Source: Sipunculus nudus
Taxonomy: Eukaryota; Annelida; Sipuncula; Golfingiida; Sipunculidae
Reading direction: 5' to 3'
Assembly (NCBI GenBank): GCA_026874595.1
Contig: CM049308.1
Span: 53,703,624 to 53,767,623, forward strand
Length of the DNA stretch: 64,000 nucleotides
Shown here: positions 6,359 to 57,831 of the stretch, piece after piece
Layout: each line of letters opens with the position of its first letter
Numbering within the stretch: position 1 is the first letter of the stretch
Translations under genes and position numbers: made by a program
Notes under the pieces: model-generated
Databases searched by the model: none
What the model saw: the letters and a program-made list of their open reading frames with translations, nothing else
Told to the model about the DNA's origin: nothing

Positions 6359-7175
6359 GACCATTTCAGCATTACAAGCGCGCATGTGCGATGACTGACC
6401 TAGAGCCCAAGGTGAAAGGTCACCATTACCAAAACAAACTACATGCGGTCCTGACAACTTCTGCCGCTTCGTTTGTCAGACGCAGCAGATACACTGTGTT
6501 ACTTGTTTCTCGGGGTTTAACATGCCTCGTCCCAAACAAAGTCGTTAAACATTGTATCAATGGTACACATGGTTTGTAAAAACAGAGCCAGCTAGTCTGT
6601 GAAAAAACACAGGAAACCACATGTAAGTTGTGTGAGTTCTGATCAGTGAACGAAGGCACCAAGGCCGTGTCACGCGCATGTGGATGCAAGTTGCCAGCAG
6701 ATCGGCGCAGACATAAACAATTTTTGTTTAAAATAGTATAGACTACACTATATTCTAATTTATATATATATATATATATATATGTATATTTAAATCATAA
6801 CATGAATGACTGGAGAAAATTTTACTGATACTGATAGCGGTACATTGTTACAAATGTGTGAATTAATGACAACTTTAACAGCAGGGATTTCTGTCCAAAT
6901 AAGTTGTGTGGCTACGTTTAGTTTAATAGTTAATATTTATATAGTATTATAACAGCATTACTATAAGTATTAGTAATACTTTGAGCCTGCCTCTCTTTCG
7001 TAACATAGAAAAGAAACTTATAATCAGATATATATATGCATATATATAAATAATTTAATATATATATGTATATATATATACACACCTAGCCGTTACCATA
7101 TATTCTTGTTACATGTACTTATTGACAAATTTTTTACTCGCTATAATATATTAATTTACAACTACTTTTAATTTA

Positions 7176-20466: not shown

Positions 20467-20563
20467 AACAAGCAAGATCGTTTGGAGGACACAGAGATGC
20501 TGTTGAAAAAACTGGTAGAGAGGGATCCTGTTCATCTGTATATAAAAGATGTTGAAGGCATGG
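20467..20563 (+). CDS. SET-domain gene, exon with pre-SET/SET start
   Basis: Acceptor TTTTGTAG, donor ATGG|GTAAGT. Encodes an acidic, helical lead-in and then the start of the SET domain (HLYIKDVEGMG). The pattern of a short strand followed by V-E-G-x-G matches where KMT5A-like SET domains begin. It ends in phase 1, completing the G-K-G turn with the next exon. A second possible acceptor at 20475-20476 would shorten it by 10 bases. Confidence 0.65.
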
Positions 20564-23500
20564 GTAAGTTTTGGTTGCTTTCTCTCTAGATGTTAATATA
20601 TTTAAAGTCAAATTCAGACTTTGGAAATTTGCCTCTATGTTTCACCATTGTCCATTTCCTCACAGTAATTTATTTTTTTTTTTTTTGATAGGTAAAGGTT
20701 TATTCACAGATTCCATAATTCAAAATGGTGATTGGATCTGCGTCTATAGTAGATCGGAATTGATGGAAGGTGAAATTCCTGGTAATCGTGATTCCACCTA
20801 TTGCTATGAATTTCACTGGAGGAACAGCGTTTACTGGTTAGTATGTTTTATTATCTGCAGCCTGTGTATGATACGATTAATTAAACTTTTTGTTTTTACT
20901 GATTTTCAGAGATGACTCACAGTTTTGGTGACTGTGTACCTACATTAATAATATCTTATTTGAGAAAGAGTATGAAAGCTTCTTATTGTGATGATATTAA
21001 ATTATTAATTTGCTTTTATTCAGGTATGATGCCACACCCGTGGACAGTGGTGTTGGTCGGTTTGGGAATGATGCCTGGACTGGGACCGCAAAAAATTCAA
21101 AAATGAGACTGGAACCAGTTGGTGGGATTCCGTTTTTGTTCCTTCAAGCTACAAGAACCATAAACAAAAACGAGGAAATCAGATACGATTATGGCTTCAG
21201 TGAGAGTCCCTGGAGGTAAGATTAGTAATATTAGTGTTTGTGGCACATAGTTATTATAATCAGAGCAAATACCTTGTGTCCTTGCATTTAGTTTGAACTG
21301 TTCTTGCTTCTGCTGCTTCTGATGTGTATTTGATCATTCAGTAAATATGGTATGAAATATTTTGTTTTTCCAGGAAAAAATCCTACCTTGCTGAAAAGAT
21401 TTGGAAAAAGGTAAGAGTGTAAAAGTTAATTCTAGTATTTTCTAGCTCCCAGCTAACTATCACTTTTTTGTGCTATTGCCAAACATCTCTAACAGGACTG
21501 CATTAATTGACCTACTTCAGAATATAAGAATGAAGATGTTCAAGTTACATTTGACCTACTGTTTCTGATTGCTTACATATGTGTCATGAGTGTACATTAC
21601 ATTTGCAGAATATGCAACAAGTTGCAGGTATTTGTAGTCAAGTTTTCAGATTTTATCATGTTTATTAGTTTAAGTGTTGATTTATTATTCCAATCAAAAA
21701 CCATTTAAATTGAAAAGGAGTAATGTTACAAATTATACACATCACTTAGCTGAGAGCATCAAATCTCTTTGCATGATTGATTGGGACTGGTCTGGATTGG
21801 TGATTTTCCAGTTGCATGTAAAAAAAAATTATTGTTTGTTGGGCTTGTTGGGTTTTATTGAGATTGAAGAAGTTTTGTCATATTGCAAAGTGCTGCATTC
21901 AAATAGCATCAGAAACTTCAAGGAATATCAACATGATCTAACATTGTTAAATTGAGCACTGATGTTAACCAGCTTCATAATGTCTTCATATGAATCAGAG
22001 TCACTCTACTGAATTGAAGTTGGGGCCTGGGGAGAAATTTGATATATTTTACTTGAAAATATTCTATGTCCCAGTGCATTTATCTCAGTGGTTGCCATCA
22101 TATAAATTAAACAGGTAAATGCTACTTGAATTTGAACCAGTACTTCTATCCAGGAGCATATTCATTTGGTATTCTTTTTTACATTACCCACCGAAGATTC
22201 CGATAACCTATTGTCGTCAGGGTTTGTCCATCGTCTGTCTGTCTGTCGCGCTGTGTTTACCAGTAGTGCAATGTTGGGTACCCAACAGGCAAAAGTTAGC
22301 CAATGTGCTCAAAACACCTTTGTTGGTAACTGGGCAGAACCTACCCTAGAAAATATGGACATAGATTTGTCTAAAAAGTGTCTGGACTTTTCAGACAGAT
22401 ATAAATGGAAATAAGCTGGTGCTGCCACCTGGTGTGTATGAGTGATCCTCCTGCTGCGCATGCGCAGTTATTGATTGTTGGACAATATTTCATTGAAACT
22501 ACCAATCTCCACATCAGACACATAGGCATCCATGAATATCATCTGAACATAGTCCCATGGTGACACAGTGGCTAGTTATGGAGCAGTGCTTTTCATATAT
22601 GGGCCAAAACTTGGGGAAAATGCTGCTCAGAAATGGTGCATTTTCAATATGGGGTCAATTTTGAGACAAGCACTGCTTCATAACTACCCACTGTGTCATA
22701 ACTACCCACTGTGTCACCCTTGGACTATGTTCGAATGATAGGTATGAAGGCCTACAATAGACATGTGATGTGCCTCGGTGCCTAACTGTCGTCAGTAACT
22801 TTTTGTCATATTGTGACAATCAAACGCCCATGACAATGTCTTTCTCCAGTAGTGTCATTTTCCTTGAATTGATCGAAGTGGGTGCTCTGCTTCTGCATCA
22901 AGTCAGGACCTAGTAATTCTTTCGCATGTGCTTTAACATTGCAGGGATAACACATGGAACTTTTGTCGTGTTTCTCCGTTATGAGCATCATTATTGAGGT
23001 CACTGGATCCGGTAACCTACAGGGCCCTTGGTCCTATTTTTAGCTCAGCTGACTATAAGTCATCTGAGCTATAGTCGTGGTCCATTGTCCGTCGTCCGTC
23101 CGTCCGTCTGTCCATCGGTCCGTCCGTAGATGTGGCACGTTTTGAAACCGTAAGACCTAGGAATCCAAAATTCAGCATAATGTTAGATGTCCCCAAGATC
23201 TCCTACCAAGCCGAAAACAGGGTCTTTGCGACTTCATTCCTTTGAGAAATTAAGGAAAAACCTCAATTTTTTATTAAAAACCTATTTTCACACTTTAGGA
23301 CTGCCTTATATCAAAACCACTCATCTGTTTTTCCTCATATTTCCTATAAATAATCCTCTATATAATTCCTATGTACATGCCAGAAATTAGGTCTGTATTA
23401 TTTAATTTAAAAAAGTTATGGGCCCAAACATAATGCATTTTGTAAATAATCAGGAAAGAAATTTTATCACTTAACACAAAACTTGTTAAAGCTAAGCACT

Positions 23501-29500: not shown

Positions 29501-32500
29501 AAATTTCAAAGATTGTTGTCTGAAACTACCAGTTAGATTATTTTAAAATTTGGTATGGAGCTTCCTCATGTTCCTCATGTTCCTTGGGACAACCATTGTT
29601 CACAGCTTTAAAATAGAAATATTAATATTAGTACTTTTAGGGGGGGGAGGTTACATCTCTGAAACTGCTACAGATATGGATGTAGTTACTATCGAACACA
29701 CACACACACACAGATTTGGGCTGCTCTCTCAAAAAAAAATTCCAATAACGATAACGTTTTTCTTATATTGTGGCAATCAAACACCCAGAGTACATGCCTG
29801 TATTTTTTTCAAGGGACATTGACAGATACTTATTTAAAGAAAGATGTAGGGTAACCTGCAGGGCCCGTGGCCCTATTTTTAACTCCCCCACGATAGCCCT
29901 TGAGCTATTGTTATGGGGCAGTGTCTGGCGTTGTCTTCGTCTTCGTTGTTAGCAATTTTTTCAAAGATCTTCTCCTCCAAAACTACTGGTTGGATTCCTT
30001 TCAAATTTGGTACAGAGCTTCCTGGAGACAATGTTTATCAAGTTTGTTCACAGTTTTCAAAAATTTTGATTTTTGAATTTTTTATGAATTTTGGAAATAC
30101 TGAAATTTTCCCTATATGTAGCATGAGGAGCAGTTTTCAAAGATCTTCTCTGAAACTACCAGTCGGGTTCCTTTCAAATTTGGTGTGTGGCTTCAGTGTC
30201 AGAGTATCTACAAAGATTGTTCATATTTTTTTAAGTGAAAAGGATTTTCAAATTTTTAATATATCAAAATATTTCTCCTTTCATCATGTTCATTGACCAT
30301 TTTATTACCTGTTGCATCCAATTTCCTGTGTGTGGCAAAATTTGGTGCAATACCGGTGAGCTAACAGGGCCGCTGGTCCTATTTTTTTTCTCTCACAGCA
30401 CACAAACAAGACAACTTGGCCAGTAGCGATCTGCCTCATGATGTTGGGATCACACCACCAATGGGAGTACACATGGAACCCAAAGTCTGGATTAACAGGT
30501 CATCCACTCCATCACTCGTACATGTCAACCCAGACAACTTTGCCAGTAATGATGAGCCTCATGATGATGGGACCTCAACTCCAATGGTAACAGCGTGCAG
30601 CATCCAGAAAGACAAGTCATCCACTCCTTCACTCATACAAATCAACCCAGACAACTTGGCCAGTAACGATGTGCCTCATGATGTTGGGACCTCAACACAA
30701 ATGGTAACAGAGTGCAGCATCCAGATTGACAGGTCATCCACTCCTTCACTCGTACAAATCAACCCAGACAACTTGGCCAGTAATGATCTGCCTCATGATG
30801 TTGAGACCTCAACGCCAATTGTAACAGAGTGCAGCATCCAGATTGACCAGTCACCCACTTCTTCACCCATACAAATCAACCCAGACAACTTAGCCAGTAA
30901 CGATCTGCCTTATGATGTTGGGACCTCAACGCCAATGGTAACTGAGTGCAGCATCCAGATTGACAAGTCATCCACTCCTTCACTCGTACAAGTCAGCCCA
31001 GACAACTTGGCCAGTAACGATGTGCCTCATGATGTTGGGACCTCAACGCCAATGGTAACAGAGTGCAGCATCCAGATTGACAGGTCATCCACTCCTTCAC
31101 TCATACAAATCAACCCAGACAACTTGGCCAGTAACGTTCTGCCTCATGATGTTGGGACCTCAAAGCCAATTGTAACAGAGTGCAGCATCCAGATTGACCA
31201 GCCACCCACTTCTTCACCCATACAAAAAAACCCAGACAACTTGGCCAGTAACGGTGTGCCTTATGATGTTGGGACCTCAACGACAATGGTAACAGAGTGC
31301 AGCATCCAGATTGACAAGTCATCAACTCGTTCACTCGTACAAGTCAACCCAGACAACTTGGCCAGTAACAATCTGCCTTATGATGTTGGGACCTCAATGC
31401 CAATGGTAACAGAGTCCAGCATCCAGATTGACCAGTCACCCACTTCTTCACTCGTACAAATCAACCCAGACAACTTGGCCAGTAACGATGTGCCTCATGA
31501 TGTTGGGACCTCAATGCCAATTGTAACAGAGTGCAGCATCCAGATTGACAAGTCATCCACTCCTTCACTCGTACAAGTCAACCCAGACAACTTGGCCGGT
31601 AACGATCTGCCTCTTGATGTTGGGATCTCAACGCCAATGGTAACAGAGTGCAGCATCCAGATTGACAGGTCATCCACTCCTTCACTTGTACAAGTCAACC
31701 CAGACAACTTGGCCAGTAACGATCTGCCTCATGATGTTGGAACCTCAACGCAAATGGTAACAGAGTGCAGCATCCAGATTGACCAGTCACCCACTTCTTC
31801 ACTCGTACAAATCAACCCAGACAACTTGGCCAGTAACGATCTGCCTTATGATGTTGGGACCTCAACGCCAATTGTAACAGAGTGCAGCATCCAGATTGAC
31901 AAGTCATCCACTCCTTCACTCGTACAAGTCAACCCAGACAACTTGGCCAGTAACAATGTACCTCATGATGTTAGGACCTCACAGCCAATGGTAACAAAGT
32001 GCAGTATCCAGATTGACCAGTCACCCACTTCTTCACTCGTACAAATCAGCCCAGACAACTTGGCCAGTAACGATCTGCCTTATGATGTTGGGACCTCAAC
32101 GCCAATGGTAACAGAGTGCAGCATCCAGATTGACAAGTCATCCACTCCTTCACTCGTACAAGTAAACCCAGACAACTTGGCCAGTAACAATCTGCCTTAT
32201 GATGTTGGGACCTCAACGCCAATGGTAACAGAGTCCAGCATCCAGATTGATCAGTCACCCACTTCTTCACTCGTACAAATCAGCCCAGACAACTTGGCCA
32301 GCAACGATGTGCCTCATGATGTTGGGACCTCAATGCCAATTGTAACAGAGTGCAGCATCCAGATTGACAAGTCATCCACTCCTTCACTCGTACAAGTCAA
32401 CCCAGACAACTTGGCCGGTAACGATCTGCCTCTTGATGTTGGGACCTCAACGCCAATGGTAACAGAGTGCAGCATCCAGATTGACAGGTCATCCACTCCT

Positions 32501-35500
32501 TCACTCGTACAAGTCAACCCAGACAACTTGGCCAGTAACGATCTGCCTCATGATGTTGGAACCTCAACGCCAATGGTAACAGAGTGCAGCATCCAGATTG
32601 ACCAGTCACCCACTTCTTCACTCGTACAAATCAACCTAGACAACTTGGCCAGTAACGATCTGCCTTATGATGTTGGGACCTCAACGCCAATTGTAACAGA
32701 GTGCAGCATCCAGATTGACAAGTCATCCACTCCTTCACTCGTACAAGTCAACCCAGACAACTTGGCCAGTAACGATGTGCCTCATGATGTTGGGACCTCA
32801 ATGCCAATGGTAACAGAGTGCAGCATCCAGATAGACAAGTCATCCACTCCTTCACTCGTACAAGTCAACCCAGACAACTTGGCCAGTAACAATCTGCCTT
32901 ATGATGTTGGGACCTCAACGCCAATGGTAACAGAGTGCAGCATCCAGATTGACAAGTCATCCACTCCTTTACTCGTACAAGTCAACCCAGACAACTTGGC
33001 CAGTAAAGATGTGCCTCATGATGTTGGGACCTCAACGCAAATGGTAACAGAGTGCAGCATCCAGATTGACAGGTCATCCACTCCTTCACTTGTACAAGTT
33101 AACCCAGACAACATGGCCAGTAACGATCTGCTTCATGATGTTACTCCACAGATTGTTGAAGATTTGCAAGGACCAGTCAACTATGATGCAGGTGAAATGT
33201 TTATCATAAATTTCAAAAGTATTGAATGTTCTTTTTTTGATAAAGGTTATTTAATCTAAAGTAAACTATTTATTAAGCACATGATCTTTTTAGAATGCCA
33301 GTATTATTTACAAGTATCTACACCATTACAGTATTCATGACACTGATATCGTGAAAAAAGTTTCTGACTAGCATATCCTTCATGACTTGCTAAAGAGCAG
33401 CCGTTCCTCGCATATGTTTTGAACAGGAATAGTTGAAATATTCCTGTACCACAAGGTATCCTTAGTCCAGGAACTCCCTCTACATAAGTTTTACAGAACA
33501 TGCAGGACTGATTACCATAGTGTTGAAAACATTTTGTCTGTTGCAGTTGAAGCCAGCGCTGACGATGATGCAGACAGTGACGTTTTTCCTATGCCTAACA
33601 TCTCCAGGGTAATTAGAACACACACTATCACAAAAGTGCAAACAAGGGTTCGCAAATTTAAAACTTTAAGATATTTTTGCCGCAACAGTGCATTGAGCTG
33701 AAAAACAAGTATGATATGAACAAATTCTGAAGATATTAAAAAATCACTGTTCCACAGGTTAACCTATGGCTTCAAAGGGTGAACAAAAAAATAAAAAAAA
33801 TTATCTTTGTTTGTGGGTTGGATATAAATATGGTTCAAGGAACTTTAGCTTTATAGATGATTGTGTTTATCACAGACGACGAAAACCTAGGCAAGATGTT
33901 GTAATATGGTAATAATGTTGATTTTCCACAGTTCCAAAGAAGAGACGAACAAATCATACAGCAGACAGAGGCAACCGTCACAGAACAAACAGAAGGCATT
34001 GAAATATGTAAGAATCAAATTGTACCTACCCCACTCACTGAAATACAACTTTCTGCCTTTTCTTCAGTCCTCATTAATATCAATTGTGACACTTAACAAA
34101 TAATTTCTATGACTGACTAGTTAGTAGCAATTTATTGTTTTTTCATATTTTCAGTTGAGTGGCTCTTCATTTTTGTTTTGATTACAGTCAACCATTTAAT
34201 CTATTTTACCATTTTCAGCGCAGAAATCACCAATCCTAGTGGATCAAACACTGAAAGAAGGTTTGAAACAACATTACTGTGTGTTCTGCCACAAACTTCA
34301 AAAGAAGATTTCGAGACACTTGTTGCAACAGCATACAAATGAACAGGAAATAGCAAAGTTGCCAGAACTACCAAAAGTGAAAGGGGAGCTATACTACAAA
34401 ATCAAGTCCCTTCGTGACAAGGTTTTGCATAAGCTAGAAAAACAAGGTGACTTTGAATACAACATGAATGTTCTAAAGGACAAAAAGGGAACATTACTGG
34501 TCTCCAGAAGACCAGCGGAGGACGGAAAACTTTTACACACAGATTATCTTCCATGTCGTTACTGTCTCGGATTTTACGTAAAAAAAGAAATTTGGAGGCA
34601 TGCGAAAACTTGCGAGCAAAGAGCCAATTTATTACCAAATAGTCCGGATGAGAGAAAGGAAGAAAGGACATTTACAAGGGACTGTGAATTGCTACTGTAT
34701 GGTGCCGGAGTGCGTCCAGAGTCCTGGACAGGAAGCGAGGATTGTGACCAAAACTTCCAAGTATATGTTCTCAACACCCTGCAGGAGGGAGATGTGGCAA
34801 GAGCGATTAGAAATGATTATTCCCTAAAGTTATTGGGCTCAGCATGGTACACCAAGCTGGGAAGAGCTTGAGCTTCAGAAATTCGAAGTAGACTGCGCCT
34901 TCTCGGCAGGCTGAAACTCGCTCTGATTGCGCAAAAGATCACCACAGACTTTGATATAACCAAGCCCTTCTTTTTGGTTATAAAACCTGACCTCTTCGAT
35001 AAAATTGCTTCTGCTGTCAAGTCTCTGGGGGTTGTGGCTTCTGGTGAAACTCTCAATGGGCTCCAGAGGTTTGAAAAGCCTGGAAACGTGGTGAAATTGG
35101 GACACTACCTTAAAAAGGTATTTGAGCCAACTACTGGATCTCCTGAAAGTTTTTGAACTTATGGATAAAACAACCATACTCTTCTCAACCATTTCAATTC
35201 TGGTTAATTTGTAATGTTTATTGTACTTTCATTAAAGTAATCTATCTGTCAACTATATACATAATAAAAATGAAATTAATCATTATATCTCAAGTAAAAC
35301 AATTTTTTAAGTGAGTCAATGTTTAATCAGTTTCACTCATAATGTCTGACCAGTAGCAATATTTAACGACTGCTATAAGAATCCACCTAGTTATCATTTC
35401 TAATCTAGCTCTTTGTCCTAAAAATTACTTCCTTATTATATGTTATTGCACAGACCTCCTTTGAGGAGGCCAAAAGCCTACACTCTGAGAGGTTATTTAT

Positions 35501-44500: not shown

Positions 44501-47500
44501 GATTGGGCTGAGGTGGCGTCACTCACTCTGGCAAGACTAATCCTCTTCAATAAGAGGAGGGGTGAGGAGCCTGCAAAACTCAGAATCCAAAGCTTTTTGG
44601 AGAGACCAACATGGCAAAATGCTAACGAAGAACTTATAAATACTTTGCAACCACTGGAACAGGAATTGATGAAAAGGTGAGTCAAGTATTATTTCTCGAA
44701 ACTGAATTGAGTCTGTTTCATTTGTTGCAAGTGTGTATATTTTTAAGACTCCATTTCTATGGAAAGCCATCATTCAAGGGACCTTCTTTCTCCTCTTGAC
44801 ATGAAGAAGACTCTGTCTGACCTATACATCATATTTGTTTAATTTGTACTTTAGCAGGAAAACCACTCCAATTAACATGATTAAGCTCTTCTCTGTAGTC
44901 TGTGAGTCTACAAACCATTTTATAACATGTTTTTTTTTCATTTTTGGATATAACAGAATGGATATGGTTGAGGTGATCGGTAAAAAGAACAGGAAGGTGG
45001 CCATCTTGCTACCACCGCTATTGAGAGATGCCATACAGATACTGATATCATGGAGGCAGAAGTCCACAAATCCTTATGTTTTTGCCAAGGTACTTTGTGA
45101 TCAACTGATCATGTTTCACATTAAACATTGTTTAATGTATGTGTTATGATGCCTTATCACAATGTTGGTTAATGTCCGACAGTTTGGAAACTAAATATGC
45201 TTGTGTCCACATAATCTGATCAATTTGATGGGTTGAAAAAAACTCAGAAATTCTGAATGAGCAAAAAGCATAATATAAGATAATAATATAATATGGCCAA
45301 ATAAGTGTTACTGTGCATTTGTTTCTGCCCTCAAAAGCATACTGCATTTTTTGAAATGGTTGAAAAATGGCCAATCTTTAAAAATTTGTAGTCATTCTAT
45401 CATCCATTGATCAAGTACCGGTAAACATGTTTTCTGCAACACCAACTGTTGACTTACTGTGAATTAATTTCTCTTAGAATTCCAATGATACCCACATGCG
45501 AGGATATGACTGCCTCAAAACAGCCTGTGCCAGAGCTGACCTGAAGATGCCTGGTTTGGTTACAAGTACCAAGCTCCGCAAATACATGGCGACAGTTTCA
45601 CAGGTCTGGACTTATTGTACCACACATCAAACGTCTAGATTTTATTTCAATGAGACAATTTTAATGAATTTCACCATTAATTTTGAAACAAGTGCTTCTG
45701 AAACACATCAAAACGAATTGACTTCACATTTGGTCATGTTGGTGTGTACAATTTGATCAAATCTTAGTTAGCCCCCTAGTTAACATTATTAGGAGGTCCT
45801 TATAAATGCTGCGAGCTCTAGTGGTTATTGCGACTCTGTGTCCAACTATCAAAAACAAACAGAACCAGGCATGGTTCTGGTCAACCAGTCATGCATGACT
45901 TGGTGTATAGACTCAATAATTTACTGACATTTCAAACATATTTTAAACATTTTGTGAGATAAATCAGTAATCAATAACAGGTCAAATTTGTGCAAAAATT
46001 TATAATATTTGGTATGACATGAACAAAATGCACAATTACTGATAAATATTGATATTATTACTGTTTAAAAAAGTACCACTATAATCTGAAAATATTGAAT
46101 AACCTACATTCTCGGAAATCATTTTTTTAGCGTGGAATCCAAACACCAAGTCATGTATGACCGAAGCACTGTCTAGTTTTTAGCTCAGCTGACTATAAGT
46201 CATCTGAGCTATAGTCGTGGTCCTTTGACCGTCATCCATCCGGCCGTTAACAGGGCACATTTTAAAACTGTAAGACCTACGAATCCAAAATTATACATAC
46301 CATTAGATGTTCCCAAAATCTCCTACCATACCGAAAATTGGGTCATTAGGACTTCGTTCCTTTGAGATACTAAGGAAAAACCTCCGTTTTTCATAAAAAA
46401 GCCATTGTTACACTTCAAGGCTGCCTAATACTTAAAACCACTGATCTGTTCTTGGTCATATTTAGTATATTTAGTATTCATATTCTTCCATACATTTTCT
46501 ATGAACATACCAAAAATTAGGTCAGTATGGGGTATTATTTTGAAGTTATGGGCCCAAATATAATGCAATTTTTAAAAAATCAGGAAATATATTAACTCAC
46601 CTAGCGTGAGAATTGCTGAAGCTGGAGACTTTTTTTTTCAGGAATATAACTTTATTTAATCAAGATTCAATGATTTCCCCAAAATTAGATCTAAATTTTG
46701 CAAATTTTTCAAGTTATTAGCATAAATAAAAAATTAATACCTTAAATTTTGTCCAACTTTGGGAATGGCAGGTTTTTTTTCTGTAAGCACTTTTGATTTA
46801 ATTTTCACAGCATATATACATAAGGATTTAATCTTTTAAAATCTGAAATTTCAAAGGAATTGATAGAAAAGAGTAGCTTTTATTCAAGTTTTCATACACC
46901 ATGTCAAGTGTTGTTGACCTCAGGCCTACCTAGTAGAACAGCCATCACTTGCATTATGTAACCCACCCCAGGCAGCTTGCCTCAGGCTCAGCTTGGCCAC
47001 TACTAGTAGGCTTCCCCTCTGCCCTGCACTCCCCCCCCCCCCCCACCAGATGTTGCATTAACTAGATGAATGTTATAATTTTCTGTATTTTATTTTATTC
47101 ATGGCTATGCTACATTTTACTAGTAGATTTTGTATTGTACCACCAGGGTTACTATGATTAAATTTTGTATCCTGTATGTTTATGCAAAGGTGTTGTTTAT
47201 TTCTTCTCTCCACTGAGTATTTGTTTAGGACAATATTCTTCTGGCAACTGCATAAAATTTATAACTGGTAAATAAAGAAATAAATATACAGAGTTACAAA
47301 GGTGTTTTTAAACTCTCATCCTCCCCCCCCCCCCCCCAATCAGGTTAAACAGCTGAGTCCCCATGTAACCCTTCACCACCACACAACACCAGATTTTGAG
47401 TCATCTCTTCTCTATAGTCACACTTAGACTCAGTCACTTCAGATTGTTTTCCTCTATAGGTCACCCTGATGTCCCATCAGTAACTACTTTGCTGAACTCC

Positions 47501-50500
47501 AAAGTTTTAGTCTCTCAAGTTGACCACAACCTGCCTATAGTGATCATGGGTGATTTCAATATTGACATTTCTAATATAATATATAACACCAAATTGACAC
47601 AATTATGTCAACTCTTTAATGTCAACAACTAGTCAGAGAACCAACCAATGACCATGGAAATACCATAGATCTTGTCTTTACTAACTGTTTAAATGCTTCA
47701 ATTTCAACATTAGAAAACACATGGTCAGATCACAAGATATTATTAGCAACAATCCCCCATTCTTCAATTCAGATCAAACATGGCAACTTCTCACAGCTTA
47801 ATCTACAATTTCTTCTCTATAGATACTTTTTGAGACATTCTGTTTCCTCTCTAATTCAGCAACAACTGCTTCCCAAACCATATAAGTTTTCTACTTTTCC
47901 ATAAATATTTTGATTTATTAAATGTGTATTTTATACTTGCAAATCTCCACTACCTTCCTCTGCAATTTACAACATCTGGTCATTCCCATTGCAATATTTT
48001 AGAAACACATTCATGTTCATATTTAAAATACTGATAACTATTCCGCTCAACTATATAATTAATACAAAAAATTACATCTGTCAAAATGCAATCTTACAGA
48101 CCTACATACAACAATAGTGACACAATTGTATCTGTCTCATTCAGCTGAGCGCGGTGACCCATGGGTCCCTTGTTATTAGTTTATCCCAGAACCTATTGTC
48201 GTCAGTTGTCATCCGTCTGTCTGTTAGCAGCAAGATCTCGGAAACTGCTCAGTAACCGTCTTTAATTTTGTCAACGTTTCTTGGCCTACGGTAATAGCAC
48301 AGACTTTTTTTTATTTCTTACTGAATCCTTTTGGACCATTTTGCGGGCCAAAAAGTGTCATTTTGGGACTTTGATTGTTGTTTTCTCAAAATCTGTTCTT
48401 TAATTTTTTTTTAATATTGCTGCAATCAAACCTTTATACCAATGTTTTTCTCCAAATTGGCCTTGAGTGACCTTGAAAGGTCAAACCCATGGTCACCAAT
48501 ATCAACATTTCAAAGATCTCCTTCTCAGACACTACCAGTCGGATTCTTCTAAATTTTAGTATGGAGCTTCCTTGAGACACTGTCTAGAAAAGGCTGCTCA
48601 CTGTTTTGAAAAATATTGATTATTAAAATTTTTTAATGAATTTTTGAAATAATAAAATTTTTCCATTTACTAAACATTGGAGATTTTTTTGAGCTTATAT
48701 CTCAGAATCTGTTACAGATATGGATGTAGTTAATATTGAGTGCATATATAATGTCATATATGGGCTTTCATTTGGTACTTCAACCTTGAAAGGTCAATTT
48801 TAAGGTAGCCAATGTCAAGACTTCAAAGATAATCTTCTTCAAAACTACAAATTGTATTCTTTTCAATATTGGTATGGAGCTTTCTTGGGATAGAAATCTT
48901 TGAAAAATTTCTATATTTTTAATTTTTTTTCTTTTCATGAGTCTTTTAAAAATTAAAATTTCCCCTTCACTTAACATAAGAAATTTTTTGGGGTGGGGGT
49001 GGGGCTATATCGCAGATGTGAATGTAGTTACTATTGAACATTTATCATGCTTATATAAACACATATTATAAGCTTTCATCTGGTACCATGATATCTGACC
49101 TTGAGTTCTCTTGAAAGGTCAAACCCAAGGTCACCAGACATCTTTTTGAAGACTTGGGCTGTTTTCTCAAAAAAAAATCATTAATGCTTTCCTCATAATT
49201 TGGCAATCAAACACCAGGTTAGTGCCCCTATTTTTTTTTCAAGGGACCTTTAAAATATTTTTTAAAAAAATCCAGGAACCTGGTATCCTACAAGGGCCGT
49301 GGCCCTATTTTATATGCTGGTTTGGCCTTTTATCAGACATGTTTATTTCTAAAAAGTACATTATTTTTCTTTTTTTTTGTTGCCAGATTATCGACATGAC
49401 TGAGATCGAGCTCCAAGAACTCGCTAGACATATGGGCCACGAGTTGGCTGTGCACAGACAGTTCTATCGTCTCCAAGAAGACGTTATTGAATTGGCGAAA
49501 GTTTCAAAGCTCTTACTGGCGGTGGAAAATGGCAAGGCCCATCGGTTTGCAGGCAAAAGTTTAGATGACATAGAGATGGAAGGTAATATTTTGCTATATT
49601 AACATTTGTATTTAGTCAATAGTTAATGCAGATACTTTAAATTAATGGAGGCAACGAAGCAACTATTTTTCTCATATCAACATCCTTCCTATAAAGGCCT
49701 AATAAAATTGGTGTAATACCTGCTTATATTGGTCTTCTTGGATGCAGTTTGGGATTGTGTAACAACTACTGCATTCACTAAATTCAGCACAATCCCTTCA
49801 CATACTGTGTCCTTTTCCAAATTTACATAGGCCTTGAAAATTTTAAATATTTATTAGACAGTGGTGCCCACGTGAAACAGTTCCATGGGCGTGGAGTGAC
49901 ACAAAATGGTTAGATTTCAGCAACTCCATTGGTTTTGCTAACATAGTGGCCGACAGCGAATATATGCCTTAGTTGAAGACTTGCACACCTTCCCTAATTA
50001 AGTTTCATTAAAATTATTCACTGACAGAGCTTGATGAGTCCCTTTGTTTGGAATCTACTGAGTATGCTGAGAGACCACCTGTGAACACACCAGACCCATT
50101 GGTGCCAGCTCCATCAACACGCACACCAGAGGAATCAAGCACTAGGCAAAGACCAGAAAGAGGTAGCACTTTTTATATTTCACCATCCTATTGCTATCAT
50201 TTTTGGTTAGGCTTTCTGTACAAGAGTGAATGGCAAATATGTCTCAAAAACAAAGCATATTCTGAAGACAGCCCCTGTTTATATAACATATATGAAAAAC
50301 ATACAAGAAATCATACACAGTGTCTTCTAACTGTGATTTTCCGTGATTTGTCCGTGATATGAAAGATGGCCGCCACGCCAGGTTTTGTACATATATAATT
50401 GCTATTAAAAGGCTTACAGAGTTGTTGATTGCAAGGCTGGAGACCATGGGAGGGGAGGGGGTTTGTTTGCTTAGCCCAGCCATTCACATTAGAATAGGCA

Positions 50501-56500: not shown

Positions 56501-57831
56501 TGGAAGCCTCAGGTGTTAGGGCCCGTTCTACAGTATCATAGTGTTCAAAAGATTATTAGTACCCTCCTGTGTTTTCTAATGGGTCAGGGGTGCAGGTTGG
56601 CAGAAATTCAAATATCAATAATCATTTTAAACGTTAATTTCCAAAACCAGTTTTATTACTAGAACAATTTGAACAATTCCAAAGTTCAGTGTGTCTTTTA
56701 TTTTATGCTGATACAAAATGTTTGGTGCATTAAAAAACTGCAATTTACATCAGATTTGATATCCAGCTTACACTACTTTTTGTAAATCTTGGTTATGCCA
56801 TGTCTTTTCACACACATGCTGATATTTGAGAATTGTTTTAACTTTGAGTGTTCCATCTCTGCCTTTTCCAGCGAACACTCCAGATTCATCTTCAGATGAA
56901 GAGCCAACCTCACCAATAAAAGGTATGACATTTACCCTTATTACCAGCTGTAAGCTTTTATCTTAGAAAAATGTCAAGGATGTCTCCAGCAATTTTTTTT
57001 AATCTCTTACAAAAGTTTCAGCCTGACTCTTTTCCTCTTGTATCATATCCCCTTTTGTGTGAAGGGCTTTCAACACCTAAACTATTATTTTTCCTTACTT
57101 ATTTTTGGTGTGCACTAGAGCAGCCACAGAAAGCTTCCAAACAAAACTAAGACATCAAATAGGTTAACAGCCACCCATTTTAATGTCCACCTATCTGCCC
57201 TGCATTTTATGAGCCTAAGCAGAAACTAATCAGGAACTGTATATTGTCATATTTATTGGTTCAATTTTTGTGTTAGCTCAAAGATTGTGTTCACCTGTTA
57301 AACAGTTCATAGCGGGACATTTCACCAGTTAGAGAGACTCAAGCATATCATCTGTTTCGTAGCACTATAAATTATATTCAATACCTGAATTGTGTTGCAA
57401 AAAATACCTAAAATAATGACACAACCCTATGATAAATTCTCTGATAGATACAGCTCAGTTACTGCCTGAATGTCCCAACTCCGTTCAAAATTATGTCCCA
57501 AAAAGGTCTGGAAATAATGTCCCAACTCTCAAATGAAATTTAAGATAAATATATTGTCATATTGATTTCAGCTAAGAAGTCCACTCATGGAAAGCCACAG
57601 CCCAGAACCAAATGGACTGAGGCGGAAGTCACAGCCATAAAAACATCCTTACTACGGAAAGTCAGAATCAACAAACGCCCACCCACTAAAGCTGATGTGC
57701 TCACATGTGTTGCGGAACATCAAAGCTTGTCGGAGAGAACTTGGCTGTCAATAAAAAGCAAAACCTGGTCAATGTTCCAATATGACCAGAAAAAAAAATC
57801 CCAAATTGCCGCCAAGCTTTTGAAAATGTAG
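20467..57831 (+). CDS. Joined gene model: SET + repeat linker + zinc fingers + tyrosine-recombinase-like + Myb-like
   Basis: Seventeen exons on one strand. From 30399 to 57831 the thirteen exons join with compatible phases at all twelve internal junctions: phase 1, 0, 1, 0, 0, 2, 0, 0, 1, 1, 1, 1 in order. Domains in order: SET, 39-residue minisatellite, Cys/His motifs, helical core-binding-like region, recombinase catalytic region, acidic linker and Myb/SANT-like tail. I recall unnamed predicted proteins in fish, lancelets and invertebrates with similar SET starts and recombinase-like tails, which supports a shared family, but I have not verified this. The bridge from 21410 (phase 0) to 30399 (requires phase 1) is missing, so two adjacent genes remain possible. 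One in-frame TGA at 34869-34871 interrupts the model. Confidence 0.4.
20692..20836 (+). CDS. SET domain, N-terminal half
   Basis: Acceptor TTTTGATAG, donor TACTG|GTTAGT. Encodes GKGLFTDSIIQNGDWICVY and continues to YCYEFHW. This fits the opening of a KMT5A-type SET domain: a G-x-G-x-F turn binding S-adenosylmethionine, the G-D/E-F-(I/V)-x-x-Y strand, then the aromatic-rich Y-x-F strand. Phases (in 1, out 2) agree with both neighbours. Known SET enzymes methylate lysines on histones or other proteins; the substrate here cannot be inferred. Confidence 0.7.
21024..21215 (+). CDS. SET domain, C-terminal half (substrate and cofactor site)
   Basis: Acceptor TTTATTCAG, donor TGGAG|GTAAGA. Encodes WYDATPVDSGVGRFGNDAW and, further on, GGIPFLFLQATRTINKNEEI followed by RYDYG and SPWR. 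D-A-T, G-R-F/L-G-N, the hydrophobic strand ending in A-T/S-R-x-I, and E-E-I-x-Y-D-Y-G correspond to the second half of a SET domain. The catalytic tyrosine region (YDYG) is present. The canonical N-H-S knot motif is not conserved: the text reads GNDAWTG, then NSKM. KMT5A itself has NHS here, but several KMT5A-like paralogues I recall also lack it. Activity is therefore uncertain. Confidence 0.75.
21374..21410 (+). CDS. Post-SET exon
   Basis: A 37-base exon between TTTTTCCAG and AAAAAG|GTAAGA. It completes the Arg codon split at the previous donor and encodes a basic tail, RKKSYLAEKIWKK, ending in phase 0. Phases fit the upstream exon. What follows is unclear. A possible acceptor near 21496 would give only four codons before a stop, meaning a SET-only product; otherwise the gene continues towards 30.4 kb. 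Confidence 0.6.
21411..22180. other. Intron or intergenic DNA after the SET exons
   Basis: AT-rich, with no further SET-like exon recognised. The open frame at 21674-21955 has no domain signature and no good splice sites. A weak alternative terminal exon at about 21497-21511 is discussed with the post-SET exon. Confidence 0.3.
22181..23040 (+). mobile_element. Dispersed family B element
   Basis: Starts near a CCTATTGTCGTCAG phrase followed by CTGTCTGTCTGTC, and ends with GTAACCTACAGGGCCCTTGG followed by TCCTATTTTT, immediately in front of a family A start at 23041. Comparable ends occur at 29.85, 30.36 and 49.30 kb. Contains two copies of ACCCACTGTGTCA near 22685. No gene visible. Confidence 0.5.
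23041..25640 (+). mobile_element. Dispersed family A element, ~2.6-kb copy 1
   Basis: Begins TAGCTCAGCTGAC with the TCATCTGAGCTA palindrome and GTCCGTCCGTC run, and ends near GGTCCCTTGTTA at about 25627-25640. Nearly the same sequence recurs at 50828-53453. It contains two related ~620-bp sub-units (about 23190-23810 and 23830-24430), each with a CTACCA(A/T)GCC phrase, GCATGTACATGCC-like text and GACCATGGCACGTTT. The end block has lost its CAGCTGAGCG part. Non-coding. Confidence 0.7.
25641..27292 (+). mobile_element. Family A copy with endonuclease fragment, 5'-truncated
   Basis: Opens inside the family A body (the GGACTGCCTAATATCAAAAC phrase) and closes with a full end block at about 27261-27292 (CAGCTGAGCACAGAGACCC). 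It is joined directly to the preceding copy. A poly-C run lies at 26280-26297. The 3' third carries a decayed endonuclease reading frame, listed separately. Confidence 0.55.
26993..27226 (+). pseudogene. Fragment of AP-endonuclease domain from a non-LTR retrotransposon (copy 1)
   Basis: The frame includes EKPTNDHGNSPDHLFTNC and NTWSGHKIF. This corresponds to the end of an apurinic-type endonuclease: the D-x-(V/I)-F-T-N strand and a degenerate S-D-H motif (here S-G-H). The homologous stretch at 47.6-47.75 kb keeps S-D-H. Catalytic upstream motifs are absent, so it is non-functional. Confidence 0.5.
27293..29100. repeat. Mixed diverged repeats, no gene
   Basis: 27.40-27.48 kb has the phrase AAAAAGTGCCATTT shared with 2.19 and 48.36 kb. 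28.30-28.80 kb resembles the repeat segments at 18.8-19.4 kb. The frame at 28131-28322 lies partly in that repeat. I see no credible exon, although the missing link between the SET exons and 30.4 kb would have to be in this interval or just before it. Confidence 0.4.
29100..29877 (+). mobile_element. Dispersed family B element
   Basis: Shares with 2.9-3.2 kb and 22.8-23.0 kb the order: ACAATGTCTTTCTCCA, then a GTCAGGAC phrase, then GTGACCTTGAA phrases, and ends with AACCTGCAGGGCCCGTGG followed by CCCTATTTTT. A (CA)n run lies at about 29696-29711. Confidence 0.5.
29878..30390 (+). mobile_element. Short family B-like element just upstream of the minisatellite exon
   Basis: Starts right after the previous family B end (AACTCCCCCACGATAGCCC) and ends with GAGCTAACAGGGCCGCTGG followed by TCCTATTTTTTTT at about 30352-30389. 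Its terminal T-rich end runs straight into the acceptor TCTCTCACAG of the exon at 30399, so the element appears to supply the polypyrimidine tract. Confidence 0.5.
30399..33191 (+). CDS. Giant coding-minisatellite exon (39-residue repeats)
   Basis: A 2,793-base exon open throughout, with acceptor TCTCTCACAG and donor GATGCAG|GTGAAA. The apparent start at 30416 is a TTG; the frame runs open through the acceptor (HKQDNLAS), so this is an internal exon starting in phase 1. It encodes about 24 tandem 39-residue units of the pattern QID(K/R/Q)S(S/P)T(P/S)SLVQ, then (V/I)NPDNLASND(L/V)P and (H/Y)DVGTSTPMVTECS. It is rich in Ser, Thr, Pro and Asp and predicted disordered. Unit type alternates (DK, DR, DQ). 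A seven-unit block is duplicated 819 bases apart (31.49 kb versus 32.31 kb). I do not recognise the repeat as a known domain. The sequence after the last unit is VTPQIVEDLQGPVNYDA. Confidence 0.75.
33547..33608 (+). CDS. Small acidic exon
   Basis: Bounded by TCTGTTGCAG and TCCAGG|GTAATT. Enters in phase 1 and leaves in phase 0. Encodes an Asp-rich segment (VEASADDDADSDVF) continuing to MPNISR. It continues the disordered linker between the minisatellite and the zinc-finger exon. Exon status rests on splice sites and phase compatibility with both neighbours. Confidence 0.6.
33932..34007 (+). CDS. Small Gln/Thr-rich linker exon
   Basis: Bounded by GATTTTCCACAG and ATAT|GTAAGA. Phase 0 in, phase 1 out. 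Encodes FQRRDEQIIQQTEATVTEQT and GIEI. Phases fit the flanking exons exactly and the frame has no stop. No domain; linker. Confidence 0.6.
34219..35117 (+). CDS. Zinc-finger-like exon, interrupted by one in-frame TGA
   Basis: Acceptor TTTTCAG, donor AAAAAG|GTATTT; 899 bases in a single frame except TGA at 34869-34871. Contains CVFC...H(4)H (Cys codons from about 34278; HYCVFCHKLQKKISRHLLQQ then H), a C2H2-like finger. About 90 residues later comes CRYC...WRHAKTC, a CCHC-type finger, near 34552-34615. After the TGA the same frame resumes with ASEIRSRLRLLGRLKLAL and continues to FEKPGNVVKLGHYLKK. The resumption without frame change, and with sequence that fits the same helical region, indicates a point nonsense change. 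It could be a pseudogene, a sequencing error or readthrough. Fingers of this kind commonly bind DNA; the role here is inferred. Confidence 0.7.
34869..34871 (+). other. In-frame TGA stop within the zinc-finger exon
   Basis: Sequence context is GGA AGA GCT TGA GCT TCA. The frame is identical on both sides, and no obvious intron removes it: GT-AG pairs around it would give an intron far shorter than the others in this gene. It would truncate the protein before the recombinase-like domain. Confidence 0.85.
35118..35763. other. Intron, no repeat recognised
   Basis: Bounded by donor GTATTT and the acceptor ATTGTTTAAG. AT-rich; no element ends or coding sequence seen. Confidence 0.5.
35764..35958 (+). 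CDS. Core-binding-like helical exon
   Basis: Bounded by CATTGTTTAAG and CTGAAG|GTATGT; exactly 65 codons, phase 0 on both sides. Encodes ALLKKAHAIRHHNNSDKNNA and then DFLEIFNSEWSDNLASVARQ, ending LPLTSDLIKLK. The pattern of W, spaced small residues and a closing L-P-L-T-x-D is compatible with the helical N-terminal core-binding domain that precedes the catalytic domain in tyrosine recombinases. This assignment rests on position and pattern only. Confidence 0.65.
36027..36173. repeat. Long palindrome / hairpin
   Basis: Two arms of about 70 bases pair around CGAGCTAAAGCTCG near 36100. Left arm phrases AGGATCTCA, TTTGTTATCAGATTTATGAA and TTCTCCATTTTAACGAGCT are matched inverted by AGCTCGTTAAAATGGAGAA, TTCATAAATCTGATAACAAA and TGAGATCCT. 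It looks like a palindromic MITE or foldback element, next to the left end of the DIRS-type element. Confidence 0.8.
36225..36300 (+). repeat. DIRS left inverted terminal repeat
   Basis: Reads TTTATTCCATAGCTTACC, then TACAGGCTGATATGAGATTA and ends CCATGACCCC. It is the diverged reverse complement of 43399-43473. Confidence 0.75.
36746..36870 (+). pseudogene. DIRS gag-like ORF, 5' piece
   Basis: Starts at ATG 36746, or more likely 36779. Includes RHSCPSCSLKTLCRSEVHNM, a cysteine pattern of the kind seen at the beginning of DIRS gag-like proteins. The frame is cut at about 36871, where a repeat element is inserted. Confidence 0.5.
36871..38597 (+). mobile_element. Repeat element inserted in DIRS gag, carrying a 180-bp minisatellite
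   Basis: The left edge has TATGCCCCCGCCACAAAGTG followed by GCCGGGGCATA, a GC-rich stem, then GTCCTTCCGTCC. The right edge has GCCCCCGGCGGGGGC followed by ATTCG...CATCTAGT. It interrupts the gag-like text, so it is younger than the DIRS insertion. Repeats opening with ATGCCCCCG...GGGGGCAT are familiar to me from bivalve genomes (inference). Confidence 0.6.
36950..38530 (+). repeat. 180-bp tandem repeat, about nine units
   Basis: The phrase TACGGACTTTTTTTCGCA, or a variant, recurs at about 36961, 37141, 37321, 37501, 37681, 37861, 38024, 38204 and 38382. Each unit also has GATTTTTGGTGTGTGGGCAG, ATAATGACCAGTTACAGAT and TTGACCTACTTTTGACC. Open frames across it (e.g. 37724-38062) are repeat shadows. 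Confidence 0.9.
38598..40735 (+). pseudogene. DIRS gag-like region, 3' piece, degenerate
   Basis: Broken frames include a Lys-rich segment (SSWKAKKKKKVPSSSVG near 39030) and a stretch with VIQEIARLMGLPPVVQKVST near 39590. Another reads VDAAELRSKPLFLGNTFGGV near 40160. The last phrases resemble the conserved end of DIRS gag, upstream of a QQQQQ-rich spacer at 40384-40400. Multiple stops and frame changes. Confidence 0.45.
40736..41484 (+). pseudogene. DIRS reverse transcriptase, frameshifted
   Basis: First frame (40736-41165): ISIDIKDAYLHMQIHHSSRK, then YQFRVLPF and HYINDWLIVAD, then LGWLPNWEKS. These are RT motifs: palm D in D-x-K-D-A-Y, and the Y-x-D-D box, here Y-I-N-D, so the first catalytic Asp is lost. 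The frame then changes near 41165 and continues with QKLEYIGVLYDLEVG in the connection region. It ends at TGA 41482-41484. Inactive. Confidence 0.75.
41485..41958 (+). pseudogene. DIRS RNase H domain
   Basis: Same frame as the RT 3' part. NKLFTDASELAWGAHL, then VLELKAVTRAY, then IYTDKTTVVAHINKQGG and LPGKRSVLADALS are the RNase H motifs, with acidic residues D, E, D and D in order. A TGA at about 41609-41611 breaks the domain between the first and second motifs. Confidence 0.7.
41820..42300 (+). pseudogene. DIRS segment after RNase H
   Basis: A shifted frame reads EWSVSPQIFQALC, then SWDGIYADAHPPTGFLTEVL, then MVLLKAPKYPT followed by a stop and LLVDTPRELPL. DIRS polyproteins usually have this W-S-x-x-P, F-x-P-P, (V/I)-L-L-x-A-P and P-R-x-L-P order between RNase H and the recombinase. 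Confidence 0.6.
42301..43391 (+). pseudogene. DIRS tyrosine recombinase, degenerate
   Basis: YEAKLRVFIRWC near 42400 fits the core-binding region. LTLKTFFLVLLASGCRRSDG near 42750 contains the box I arginine. LDALLCPVRAIRMYVRRT follows near 42945. After a frameshift, ITAHQVWHVSRC near 43152 corresponds to box II with the sequence decayed. The end SQSGRFRLGPIIVAPATVPP near 43290 resembles the C-terminus of DIRS recombinases. No intact catalytic set. Confidence 0.55.
43399..43473 (-). repeat. DIRS right inverted terminal repeat
   Basis: Begins GGGGTCATGAATTACC and ends GTAAGTATGGCAATAAA. Its reverse complement aligns over about 75 bases with the left repeat, with scattered substitutions. Confidence 0.75.
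43474..44112. other. Intron sequence; short unidentified coding-like fragment
   Basis: At about 43780-43938 an open frame reads DHHGKAHTFWPSIFLGDQE and further, ending SFQF before a TAA. It starts after a stop, has no splice sites and I do not recognise it. It could be a remnant of a transposon. The remainder shows nothing notable. Confidence 0.25.
44113..44250. mobile_element. Small MITE-like element
   Basis: Short inverted termini: TCTTGTTATAACAAA on the left and TTTGTTATAGCAAGA on the right (one mismatch). They enclose about 110 bases with a poly-T run. No coding capacity. Confidence 0.5.
44444..44676 (+). CDS. Recombinase-like domain, box I exon
   Basis: Acceptor TGTTTTCACAG, donor AAAAG|GTGAGT, phase 0 in and 2 out. 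A helical start (NYMDERLKELLPKL) is followed by VASLTLARLILFNKRRGEEP. L-x-x-F-N-x-R-R-x-x-E sits where tyrosine recombinases have the box I motif T-G-x-R-x-x-E; candidate catalytic Arg codons are 44555-44557 and 44558-44560. The helix that follows (LRIQSFLERP) fits the same fold. Confidence 0.7.
44957..45089 (+). CDS. Recombinase-like domain, beta-hairpin Lys exon
   Basis: Acceptor GGATATAACAG, donor GCCAAG|GTACTT. Phase 2 in, 0 out. Encodes MDMVEVIGKKNRKVAILLPP, continuing to a helix with DAIQILISWRQ and ending NPYVFAK. G-K-K-x-R-K-V-x-I-L-x-P corresponds to the beta2-beta3 hairpin of tyrosine recombinases, which carries the catalytic Lys (codons 44982-44987 and 44994-44996 are candidates). 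Confidence 0.7.
45478..45603 (+). CDS. Recombinase-like domain, box II exon
   Basis: Acceptor TTTCTCTTAG, donor TCACAG|GTCTGG; 42 codons, phase 0 both sides. Encodes MRGYDCLKTACARADLKMPG and then STKLRKYMATVSQ. S/T-x-L-R-(K/H)-x-x-A-T matches box II (H-x-L-R-H-x-x-A-T) with the usual His replaced by Thr; the Arg codon is 45577-45579. Confidence 0.75.
45604..46180. other. Intron, no identified element
   Basis: AT-rich. Two references to the phrase CAAGTCATG(T/C)ATGA (reverse TCATGCATGACTTGG at about 45890, CAAGTCATGTATGACC at about 46146) form widely spaced inverted ends, so a small TIR element of about 300 bp (45850-46175) may be present, adjacent to the family A start at 46181. Confidence 0.35.
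46181..48174 (+). mobile_element. Dispersed family A element, complete ~2.0-kb copy
   Basis: Full start block (TAGCTCAGCTGACTATAAGT, palindromic TCATCTGAGCTA) and full end block (CAGCTGAGCGCGGTGACCC, GGTCCCTTGTTA). Body phrases match the copies at 23.0 and 50.8 kb in the first 750 bases. It then carries C-runs at 47030 and 47322 and an endonuclease fragment. Located in the intron between exons ending 45603 and starting 49387. Confidence 0.65.
47455..47790 (+). pseudogene. Fragment of AP-endonuclease domain from a non-LTR retrotransposon (copy 2)
   Basis: Encodes LVSQVDHNLPIVIMGDFNID. G-D-F-N is the conserved core of apurinic-type endonucleases of LINE elements. After a stop at about 47632, a second frame has a PTNDHGNT-like segment and NTWSDHKIL, the S-D-H catalytic motif. 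Truncated and frame-broken. Homologous to the fragment at 26993-27226. Confidence 0.6.
48175..49312 (+). mobile_element. Dispersed family B element
   Basis: Starts CCTATTGTCGTCAG with CCGTCTGTCTGTTAG and ends TATCCTACAAGGGCCGTGGC then CCTATTTTA. Internal halves both contain 'GACCTTGAAAGGTCAA' and 'TCTTCTTC...AAACTAC' phrases, so it has an internal duplication. It lies directly after the family A copy, without spacer. Confidence 0.55.
49387..49582 (+). CDS. Recombinase-like domain, box III and tyrosine exon
   Basis: Acceptor TTTTTTGTTGCCAG, donor GGAAG|GTAATA. Phase 0 in, 1 out. Encodes EIELQELARHMGHELAVHRQ then FYRL. L-x-x-x-M-G-H with a downstream His and F-Y-R matches box III plus the nucleophile of tyrosine recombinases: the His codon of G-H is 49438-49440, a second His 49453-49455 and the Tyr 49465-49467. 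A C-terminal helix follows (VIELAKVSKLLLAVENG) with a tail (SLDDIEME). Together with the preceding exons, Arg, Lys, Arg, His and Tyr positions are all occupied. Confidence 0.75.
50028..50162 (+). CDS. Acidic/Pro-rich linker exon
   Basis: Acceptor TTCACTGACAG, donor AGAG|GTAGCA. Phase 1 on both sides. Encodes ELDESLCLESTEYAERPPVN, then TPDPLVPAPSTRTPEES, ending RQRPER. Predicted disordered. Phase compatibility with the exon before and after is exact. Confidence 0.65.
50163..50827. other. Intron, no identified element
   Basis: Contains a G-rich stretch at 50446-50530 and an inverted phrase pair GCATGTCACAAGG near 50730. A family B-like end remnant (AACCTGCATGAACCTATTTT) precedes the family A start at 50828. 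Confidence 0.35.
50828..53453 (+). mobile_element. Dispersed family A element, complete ~2.6-kb copy 2
   Basis: Start block TAGCTCAGCTGAC with palindrome, a run of about ten GTCC(G) units at 50875-50920, and complete end block CAGCTGAGCGTCGTGACCC plus GGTCCCTTGTT at 53421-53453. Nearly the same as 23041-25640 throughout, so the two copies are recent relatives. Its 3' end lies only about 18 bp from the acceptor of the exon at 53472. Confidence 0.75.
53472..53549 (+). CDS. 78-bp acidic exon between two transposable elements
   Basis: Acceptor TTAGCAG, donor GATGATA|GTAAGT. Phase 1 on both sides. Encodes VAKRKHMSDDEQEDDSDSN and LSFKLDD: a basic K-R-K-H start, possibly part of a nuclear localisation signal, followed by a Ser/Asp/Glu-rich stretch that would suit casein kinase 2 (inference). 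An element ends 18 bp upstream and another starts 11 bp downstream. Confidence 0.6.
53561..55758. mobile_element. 2.2-kb TIR element with internal 280-bp tandem repeats
   Basis: Left end TACTGTGGTTGCCC, then TTCGCGAGG and TTTTTGCGATATTCGCGAA. The right end mirrors it with TCGCAAAATTT, CCTCTCGAATATGAAGCC and CTACAGTA. The inverted ends extend about 80-100 bases with divergence. The interior holds the tandem repeats and no transposase. Non-autonomous DNA transposon. Confidence 0.65.
53830..55235 (+). repeat. 280-bp tandem repeat, about five units
   Basis: GGATGTCTGC recurs at about 53833, 54111, 54391, 54670 and 54950, spacing 279-280 bp. Each unit has two copies of the palindrome GGTGGCGCCACC or a variant, plus TTATAAAGCTCTCCAAGGGC and GGTCAAACGGTTCCCGAGAT. 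The frames on both strands (e.g. 54520-54708, 54776-54988) repeat with the units and are not genes. Confidence 0.9.
55767..55855. repeat. Near-perfect 44-bp-arm hairpin
   Basis: Left arm ATATATCATCATTGACGCCC then ACATCCATGTAG. Right arm CTACATGGATGT then GGGTGTCACTGATGATATAT. The central loop is only a few bases. Only a few mismatches. Sits directly after the TIR element. Confidence 0.85.
55859..56871. other. Intron, no identified gene
   Basis: AT-rich up to 56.3 kb with recurrent 'CAAAACTGCCAAA/ACCACCAAAT' text, then a purine-rich patch at 56.32-56.53 kb (GGGTTGGGATTG, GGGTGGAGG). No element ends recognised. Ends with the acceptor TTTTCCAG. Confidence 0.35.
56872..56922 (+). CDS. 51-bp Ser/Glu-rich exon
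   Basis: Acceptor CTGCCTTTTCCAG, donor AAAAG|GTATGA. Phase 1 on both sides. Encodes TNTPDSSSDEEPTSPIK, a likely phosphorylated acidic linker (inference). Small size makes it less certain, but phase and splice sites match the neighbours. Confidence 0.6.
56923..57571. other. Intron, no identified element
   Basis: AT-rich, with TGTCCCAACTC repeated twice near 57471 and 57514. Nothing else recognised. Confidence 0.35.
57572..57831 (+). CDS. Terminal exon: Myb/SANT-like domain
   Basis: Acceptor TTGATTTCAG, phase 1 in. The stop TAG is 57829-57831. The upstream ATG at 57562 lies in the intron and is not the start. Encodes KPQPRTKWTEAEVTAIKTSL, then a basic turn, LTCVAEHQSLSERTWLSIKS and KTWSMFQ. 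The spaced aromatic positions (W-T-E-x-E near the start, R-T-W-x-x-I-K-x-x-x-W at the end) fit a Myb/SANT-like three-helix domain, which could bind DNA or histone tails. The basic C-terminus ends KKKSQIAAKLLKM. No AATAAA is obvious within 200 bp downstream. Confidence 0.65.

Follow-up and report, generated by a model that had tools for sequence, protein, structure and literature searches.

A SET-domain module and, on the same strand, a zinc-finger-like gene with a tyrosine-recombinase (YR) domain were found in the window, that is, the whole 64,000-nucleotide stretch of Sipunculus nudus DNA analysed here, and this succession of a SET module and a recombinase-fold gene agrees with the initial annotation. 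Both parts are split by introns, the YR domain retains the active-site Tyr, related copies occur elsewhere in the genome, and the window copy carries an in-frame stop codon. Our reading, which we hold at about even confidence, is that the window contains a member of an undescribed, gene-like family derived from a tyrosine recombinase, in which a repeat-rich N-terminal region is followed by two zinc-finger-like motifs and a YR-type domain; the odds that this member is joined to the SET module are themselves even. Most likely, the recombinase family is of host type and has been domesticated, and a SET module may be present in one of its branches.

The SET module lies at 20467-21410 on the plus strand, where splice-phase reading joined four exons in phase across three introns, all of them GT-AG (3/3). 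Exon 1 (20467..20563; NKQDRLED...IKDVEGMG) ends at a GT donor in a phase that suits exon 2 (20692..20836; GKGLFTDSII...NSVYW), exon 3 (21024..21215) carries an altered Asn-His motif (GRFGNDAW) together with YDYG, and exon 4 (21374..21410; KKSYLAEKIWKK) closes at a near-consensus donor, AAG/GTAAG. The joined reading runs for 156 codons without a stop, or 157 when the last base of exon 4 is counted, and the probability of finding no stop in 157 codons, as expected from base composition, is 2e-5. The joined peptide matched the Pfam SET profile over its full length (E 5.1e-9, 36.9 bits against a cut-off of 22.4, positions 1-105 of 105), which places it among the SET domain proteins; this match supports exons 2 and 3. 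The best PDB match of the peptide, which also supports exon 3, was KMT5A (E 9.4e-10). The in-phase join and these two matches bear out the earlier claim that four phase-compatible exons give a KMT5A-like SET domain.

KMT5A (SETD8, PR-Set7), an H4K20 methyltransferase, shares the full-length SET domain and YDYG with the window SET. However, KMT5A has Asn-His-Ser (GRLINHS), whereas the window SET has Asn-Asp-Ala (GRFGNDA) and a SET relative on C13 has Asn-Asp-Ser (C-labels are contigs and L-labels are family loci of the genome searched, 1.43 Gb in 153 contigs). Since the intact Asn-His-Ser is absent from GRFGNDA, the window SET was rejected as a KMT5A orthologue. Asn-Asp in this motif, which we take to bear on methyltransferase activity, is present in both the window SET and the C13 relative, and the change therefore probably predates the window locus.

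Downstream of the SET module, six exons at 34219-49582 on the plus strand form an in-phase chain of 593 codons that contains a single stop, compared with about 39 stops expected from base composition, and all six are preceded by AG and followed by GT (6/6). The zinc-finger-like exon (34219..35117; CxxC...RH, CRYC...RH..C), which has a 98% copy on C5, is followed by an exon that lies between the zinc-finger and recombinase regions (35764..35958) and by four YR exons. YR exon 1 (44444..44676) holds NKRRGEE, in which a candidate for the first active-site Arg was located by eye. Exons 2 to 4, which were supported by profile alignment in addition to the phase chain, hold the beta-hairpin Lys (IGKKNRKV; 44957..45089), the HxxR box with Thr for His (TSTKLRKYMAT; 45478..45603) and the GH...Tyr stretch (MGHELAVHRQFYR; 49387..49582), respectively. 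The phase test took in 6 of the 13 exons first proposed, those not in the chain being the repeat open reading frame (ORF; 30365-33259) and the exons located around 33.5, 34.0, 50.1, 53.5 and 57.6 kb. Thirteen phase-compatible exons had been described; the six with the zinc-finger-like motifs and the YR fold did join in phase, but an in-frame TGA at 34869..34871, within the zinc-finger-like exon, had gone unreported.

The frame is open at 34869-34871 in the sister copy on C5, so the TGA looks like a loss in the window copy, which, because of this stop, does not encode the full protein as read. The C5 copy is without the recombinase half in the C5 stretch compared, and one of its exons has a 7-base gap. 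As read, neither the window copy nor the C5 copy encodes a complete protein. The window copy is probably a pseudogene, or yields a protein shortened before the recombinase part. Between the window, which lies on C3, and C5, the zinc-finger-like exon shows few changes (8 codons differ synonymously, 4 non-synonymously and 1 by a stop), as counted within the exon up to the in-frame codon gap, with one codon preceding the exon excluded.

The assignment of the domain to the YR fold was approached by profile-profile comparison. When six family members were aligned by hhalign with four XerC/D-type recombinases, a probability of 93 and an E-value of 3.3e-7 were obtained over 113 columns. The aligned columns extend from the hairpin Lys as far as the region of the Tyr, with the Lys, LRK and GH in register and the Tyr one column off. 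Re-run with controls, the comparison gave a score of 47.4, while the highest score among 100 column shuffles was 19.7 and that of the reversed profile 15.2; the score was 57.2 without the window row and only 22.2 for the window YR sequence alone. Furthermore, a typed family consensus matched the integrase profile PHROG_216 at E 4.4e-5, and the window member matched it at 0.0091. By in-register profile similarity the domain thus falls within the tyrosine recombinase fold, and the recombinase-like domain of the initial annotation stands.

No Pfam recombinase family (DUF3504, Phage_integrase) was matched in the window peptides, the L003 and L008 frames, the three-member alignment A1 or the typed consensus, and Pfam, NCBIfam and PDB sequence searches gave no credible match for the YR part. 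The 14 pattern matches in viral contigs yielded no confirmed relative (0 of 14), and prokaryote genomes gave, among the matches listed, one 19-residue match that was judged to be due to chance.

The active-site residues were counted by eye in the six rows of alignment A2 and in L026, that is, in 7 members of about 24 loci. The active-site Tyr is kept in all seven (7/7), the second Arg in 6/7 (Gly in L005) and the His of GH in 6/7 (Asn in L028). The hairpin Lys is present in 6/6 members; the first Arg, which falls beyond the alignment and was located by eye, is present in all six members that cover its site. The His of HxxR was found in none of the seven, being replaced by Thr in six and by Ser in L027. 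A classification as an active tyrosine recombinase with a complete R-H-R-Y tetrad was rejected because this His is absent in 7/7. Taken together, the profile score, the PHROG match and the residue counts support, at the level of sequence, a predicted YR fold for the family. XerC/XerD-type recombinases share with it the profile match and the register of the Lys, LRK and GH; unlike them, the family has Thr or Ser for the HxxR His, a zinc-finger-like N-terminal part, many introns and an animal host.

Regarding narrower labels, DIRS/Ngaro retrotransposons also encode YRs, and a DIRS-like remnant lies in an intron of the zinc-finger/YR gene; unlike DIRS/Ngaro elements, however, the six zinc-finger/YR exons are without a reverse transcriptase. 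Direct profile comparison with this remnant and with three DUF3504 loci, two of which were read in the wrong frame, was uninformative, since the XerC/D profile matched none of them either. The proposed Crypton-like character found no support, as none of the members scanned matched Pfam DUF3504; the nine DUF3504 matches in the genome, among the matches listed, all lie away from the family loci. The Crypton-derived DUF3504 genes (KCTD1, KIAA1958, ZMYM2/3/4, QRICH1, WOC) are likewise animal genes that contain introns, encode a YR-derived domain and are likely domesticated, but according to PMC3212892 they have lost the active-site Tyr and the second Arg, which the zinc-finger/YR family keeps in 7/7 and 6/7 of the members read, respectively. 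The putative last exon with a stop (57562..57831, plus strand), which lies outside the chain and is near-identical on C14 and C10, had been described as a Myb/SANT-like tail. This label found no support: there was no Pfam Myb/SANT match, and the single-sequence structure model, a low-confidence one of three helices with a mean pLDDT of 68.7, gave no Foldseek match at E <= 0.001.

The repeat ORF (30365..33259, plus strand; 964 codons), an open frame outside the chain, is a possible N-terminal region of the YR gene. It consists of a 117-bp (39-aa) tandem unit in about 23 copies with no internal stop, and repeat-rich N-terminal regions are also present in two intron-bearing paralogues, L026 and L028. 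In 21 of the 23 units, the changes from consensus were 102 non-synonymous versus 18 synonymous; this ratio of 5.7, compared with about 2.8 expected, gives no sign of purifying selection. The C5 duplicate of the repeat ORF has fewer 39-residue units than the window. The retroelement remnant occupies 38596..43540 (plus strand), outside the gene, in the intron at 35.96-44.44 kb. It contains a reverse transcriptase match (RVT_1, E 3.1e-7) at 40694-41197, and we take it to be of the DIRS type. Since pieces of the remnant also occur in the C5 and C10 duplicates, the insertion probably preceded the duplication.

Roughly 24 family loci were found in the genome after collapsing at 100 kb, a rough count that includes the window, its duplicates and some weak matches, with only the best candidates scored. 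Introns run across the zinc-finger/YR body in the window, L026, L027 and L028, and long open frames are present in the intron-bearing paralogues L026, which is on C8, and L028. The body is intron-free in L003, L005, L024 and L025, all of which are damaged or incomplete. In L025 (C14:14914500-14922500), positions 640-7138 hold three head-to-tail bodies, 90-93% alike, with a unit of about 2.16 kb. Another two intron-bearing paralogues, L006 (C10:73.34 Mb) and L008 (C17:2.915 Mb), are separated by 3 substitutions across some 1.8 kb of coding sequence, and this near-identity points to a very recent duplication; L006 carries frame-shifting gaps. The family copies at C13 ~16268084-16269552 and C3 ~33880587-33882026 have 1.49 kb in common (91%) with abrupt ends, and the 3' end of the common stretch falls within the YR body.

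The window locus itself has partial duplicates at three places. The C5 duplicate matches the window at about 22.25-43.1 kb and then at 62.4-64 kb; the C14 duplicate matches it up to 18.26 kb and then at 43.8-64 kb, without 18.3-43.8 kb; the C10 duplicate matches 39.0-58.4 kb on one strand, and 40.7-44.6 kb is inverted in the part compared. The C10 copies, at C10:83001-101792 near the contig start, form an inverted pair, which may be a true palindrome or may have arisen in the assembly. Large arrays of an 86-bp satellite lie upstream of the SET exons in the window (3686-6358, 9001-11046 and 13688-17559), and the same satellite forms a long array on C14 directly ahead of the duplicated segment. 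The re-aligned duplicate stretches are 94-98% identical. Their exons differ by 0-7% and the remainder by 2-4%, and hence there is no clear extra conservation of the exons. A SET-peptide search of the genome located the SET exons in none of the three duplicates, and among the places examined only the window has SET, zinc-finger-like and YR parts all within 40 kb.

Whether the KMT5A-like SET exons open the transcription unit of the zinc-finger/YR gene is, in our judgement, evenly balanced. Joining is favoured by the common strand of the two parts. The donor sequence at SET exon 4, AAGGTAAG, occurs nowhere else on the plus strand of the window, and no AATAAA is met for 2.2 kb past this exon. This near-consensus donor and the distance to AATAAA stand against the alternative of two separate adjacent genes, a divergent KMT5A-like SET gene followed by a recombinase-derived zinc-finger gene, to which we give somewhat less than an even chance. 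In favour of that alternative, ATTAAA, a variant poly(A) signal, is present at 22106, 0.7 kb past the SET, and, if exon 4 is left unspliced, a stop is reached at the fourth codon past the donor, which would make a stand-alone SET gene possible. No linking exon was found at 21.4-30.4 kb among the matches listed. When 18.2-30.5 kb was compared with the SET loci at C13 and C3:57.5, the matches listed consisted of the SET exon and dispersed repeats, a comparison in which weaker common exons may have escaped notice. Separate genes are also favoured by the duplicates, since the C5 one begins past the SET and the C14 one is without the region that contains it, and by two intron-bearing paralogues without a SET within about 21 kb upstream (with a three-sequence profile, the SET exon was absent within about 20-21 kb upstream of the zinc-finger-like exon in 2/2 genes, on C8 and C17).

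The relatives of the SET module elsewhere in the genome bear on both readings. The relative at C13:16120444-16121280 matches the window SET at 38-44%, and a SET fragment at C3:57518791-57518898 matches the C13 SET at 81%. These two closest SET relatives lie near YR copies, which argues against separate genes: the C13 SET is about 147 kb upstream of a YR-family copy, and the C3:57.5 fragment is about 72 kb from YR copies, downstream of the nearest same-strand YR piece. If 24 YR loci were placed at random, distances this short would have a probability of 0.005 for C13 and 0.002 for C3:57.5; for C3:57.5 the value is 0.12 when the crowding of YR loci in that part of C3 is allowed for. The length of the C13 gap and the reversed order at C3:57.5 speak against joining. 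The YR pieces at C3:57.38 and 57.45 Mb match the C13 YR at 82 and 81% over about 70 residues, with 61-64% in adjoining pieces; given the similarity of both the YR and the SET pieces, a SET-YR pair may have duplicated together. On the other side, further SET places, on C7, C1 and C8:25.55 Mb, resemble the C13 SET peptide at 31-41% identity, about as closely as the window SET does (38%), and none of them is near a listed YR locus, so that two of the five other SET places, rather than all, lie near the family. Unnamed predicted animal proteins presumably resemble the joined gene at its start and its tail. In the joined protein, the zinc-finger-like and YR parts would bind DNA, and the SET part, with Asn-Asp in the window and on C13, would serve as a chromatin-contact module or a weak methyltransferase rather than as a normal KMT5A.

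A family of mobile elements (YR transposons) having captured a SET domain might account for about 24 genomic loci, many of whose matches contain stops, for the several intron-free bodies, one of them in a triple tandem array, for the abruptly ending 1.49 kb shared by the C13 and C3:33.88 Mb copies, and for the retained Tyr. However, borders judged by eye are acceptor-like before the compact body in C13 and C3:33.88 and donor-like after it in C14 and C11; the stretch common to C13 and C3:33.88 ends inside the YR body; the window locus has been copied as large segmental duplicates whose breakpoints differ; and no copy examined was seen with SET and YR in a single open frame. We therefore regard a SET-capturing element as quite improbable. 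Since several bodies contain introns and the partial copies are segmental duplicates without a SET, the gene-like family is favoured; of the mobile element and the domesticated gene between which the initial annotation had left the choice, the latter fits better.

No SET-YR combination was found in the literature searched by title and abstract opening, with subscription papers outside its scope, and within the same scope the earlier impression of an undescribed family is borne out. It seems unlikely, though not negligibly so, that animal host genes encode one protein with SET, zinc fingers and a Tyr-retaining YR domain, in which chromatin reading or writing would be coupled to DNA strand breakage and joining. 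The known Crypton-derived animal genes are without the active-site Tyr according to PMC3212892. Compared with them, a multi-member animal family, some members of which bear introns and long open frames, that keeps the Tyr, the Lys and mostly the Arg residues would be either a DNA-binding scaffold that happens to have kept the catalytic residues or, possibly, a new host protein that cleaves DNA. SETMAR combines a SET domain with a DDE transposase. If the SET module of the window belongs to the same transcription unit as the zinc-finger/YR gene, it would represent an independent methyltransferase-recombinase combination beside SETMAR.
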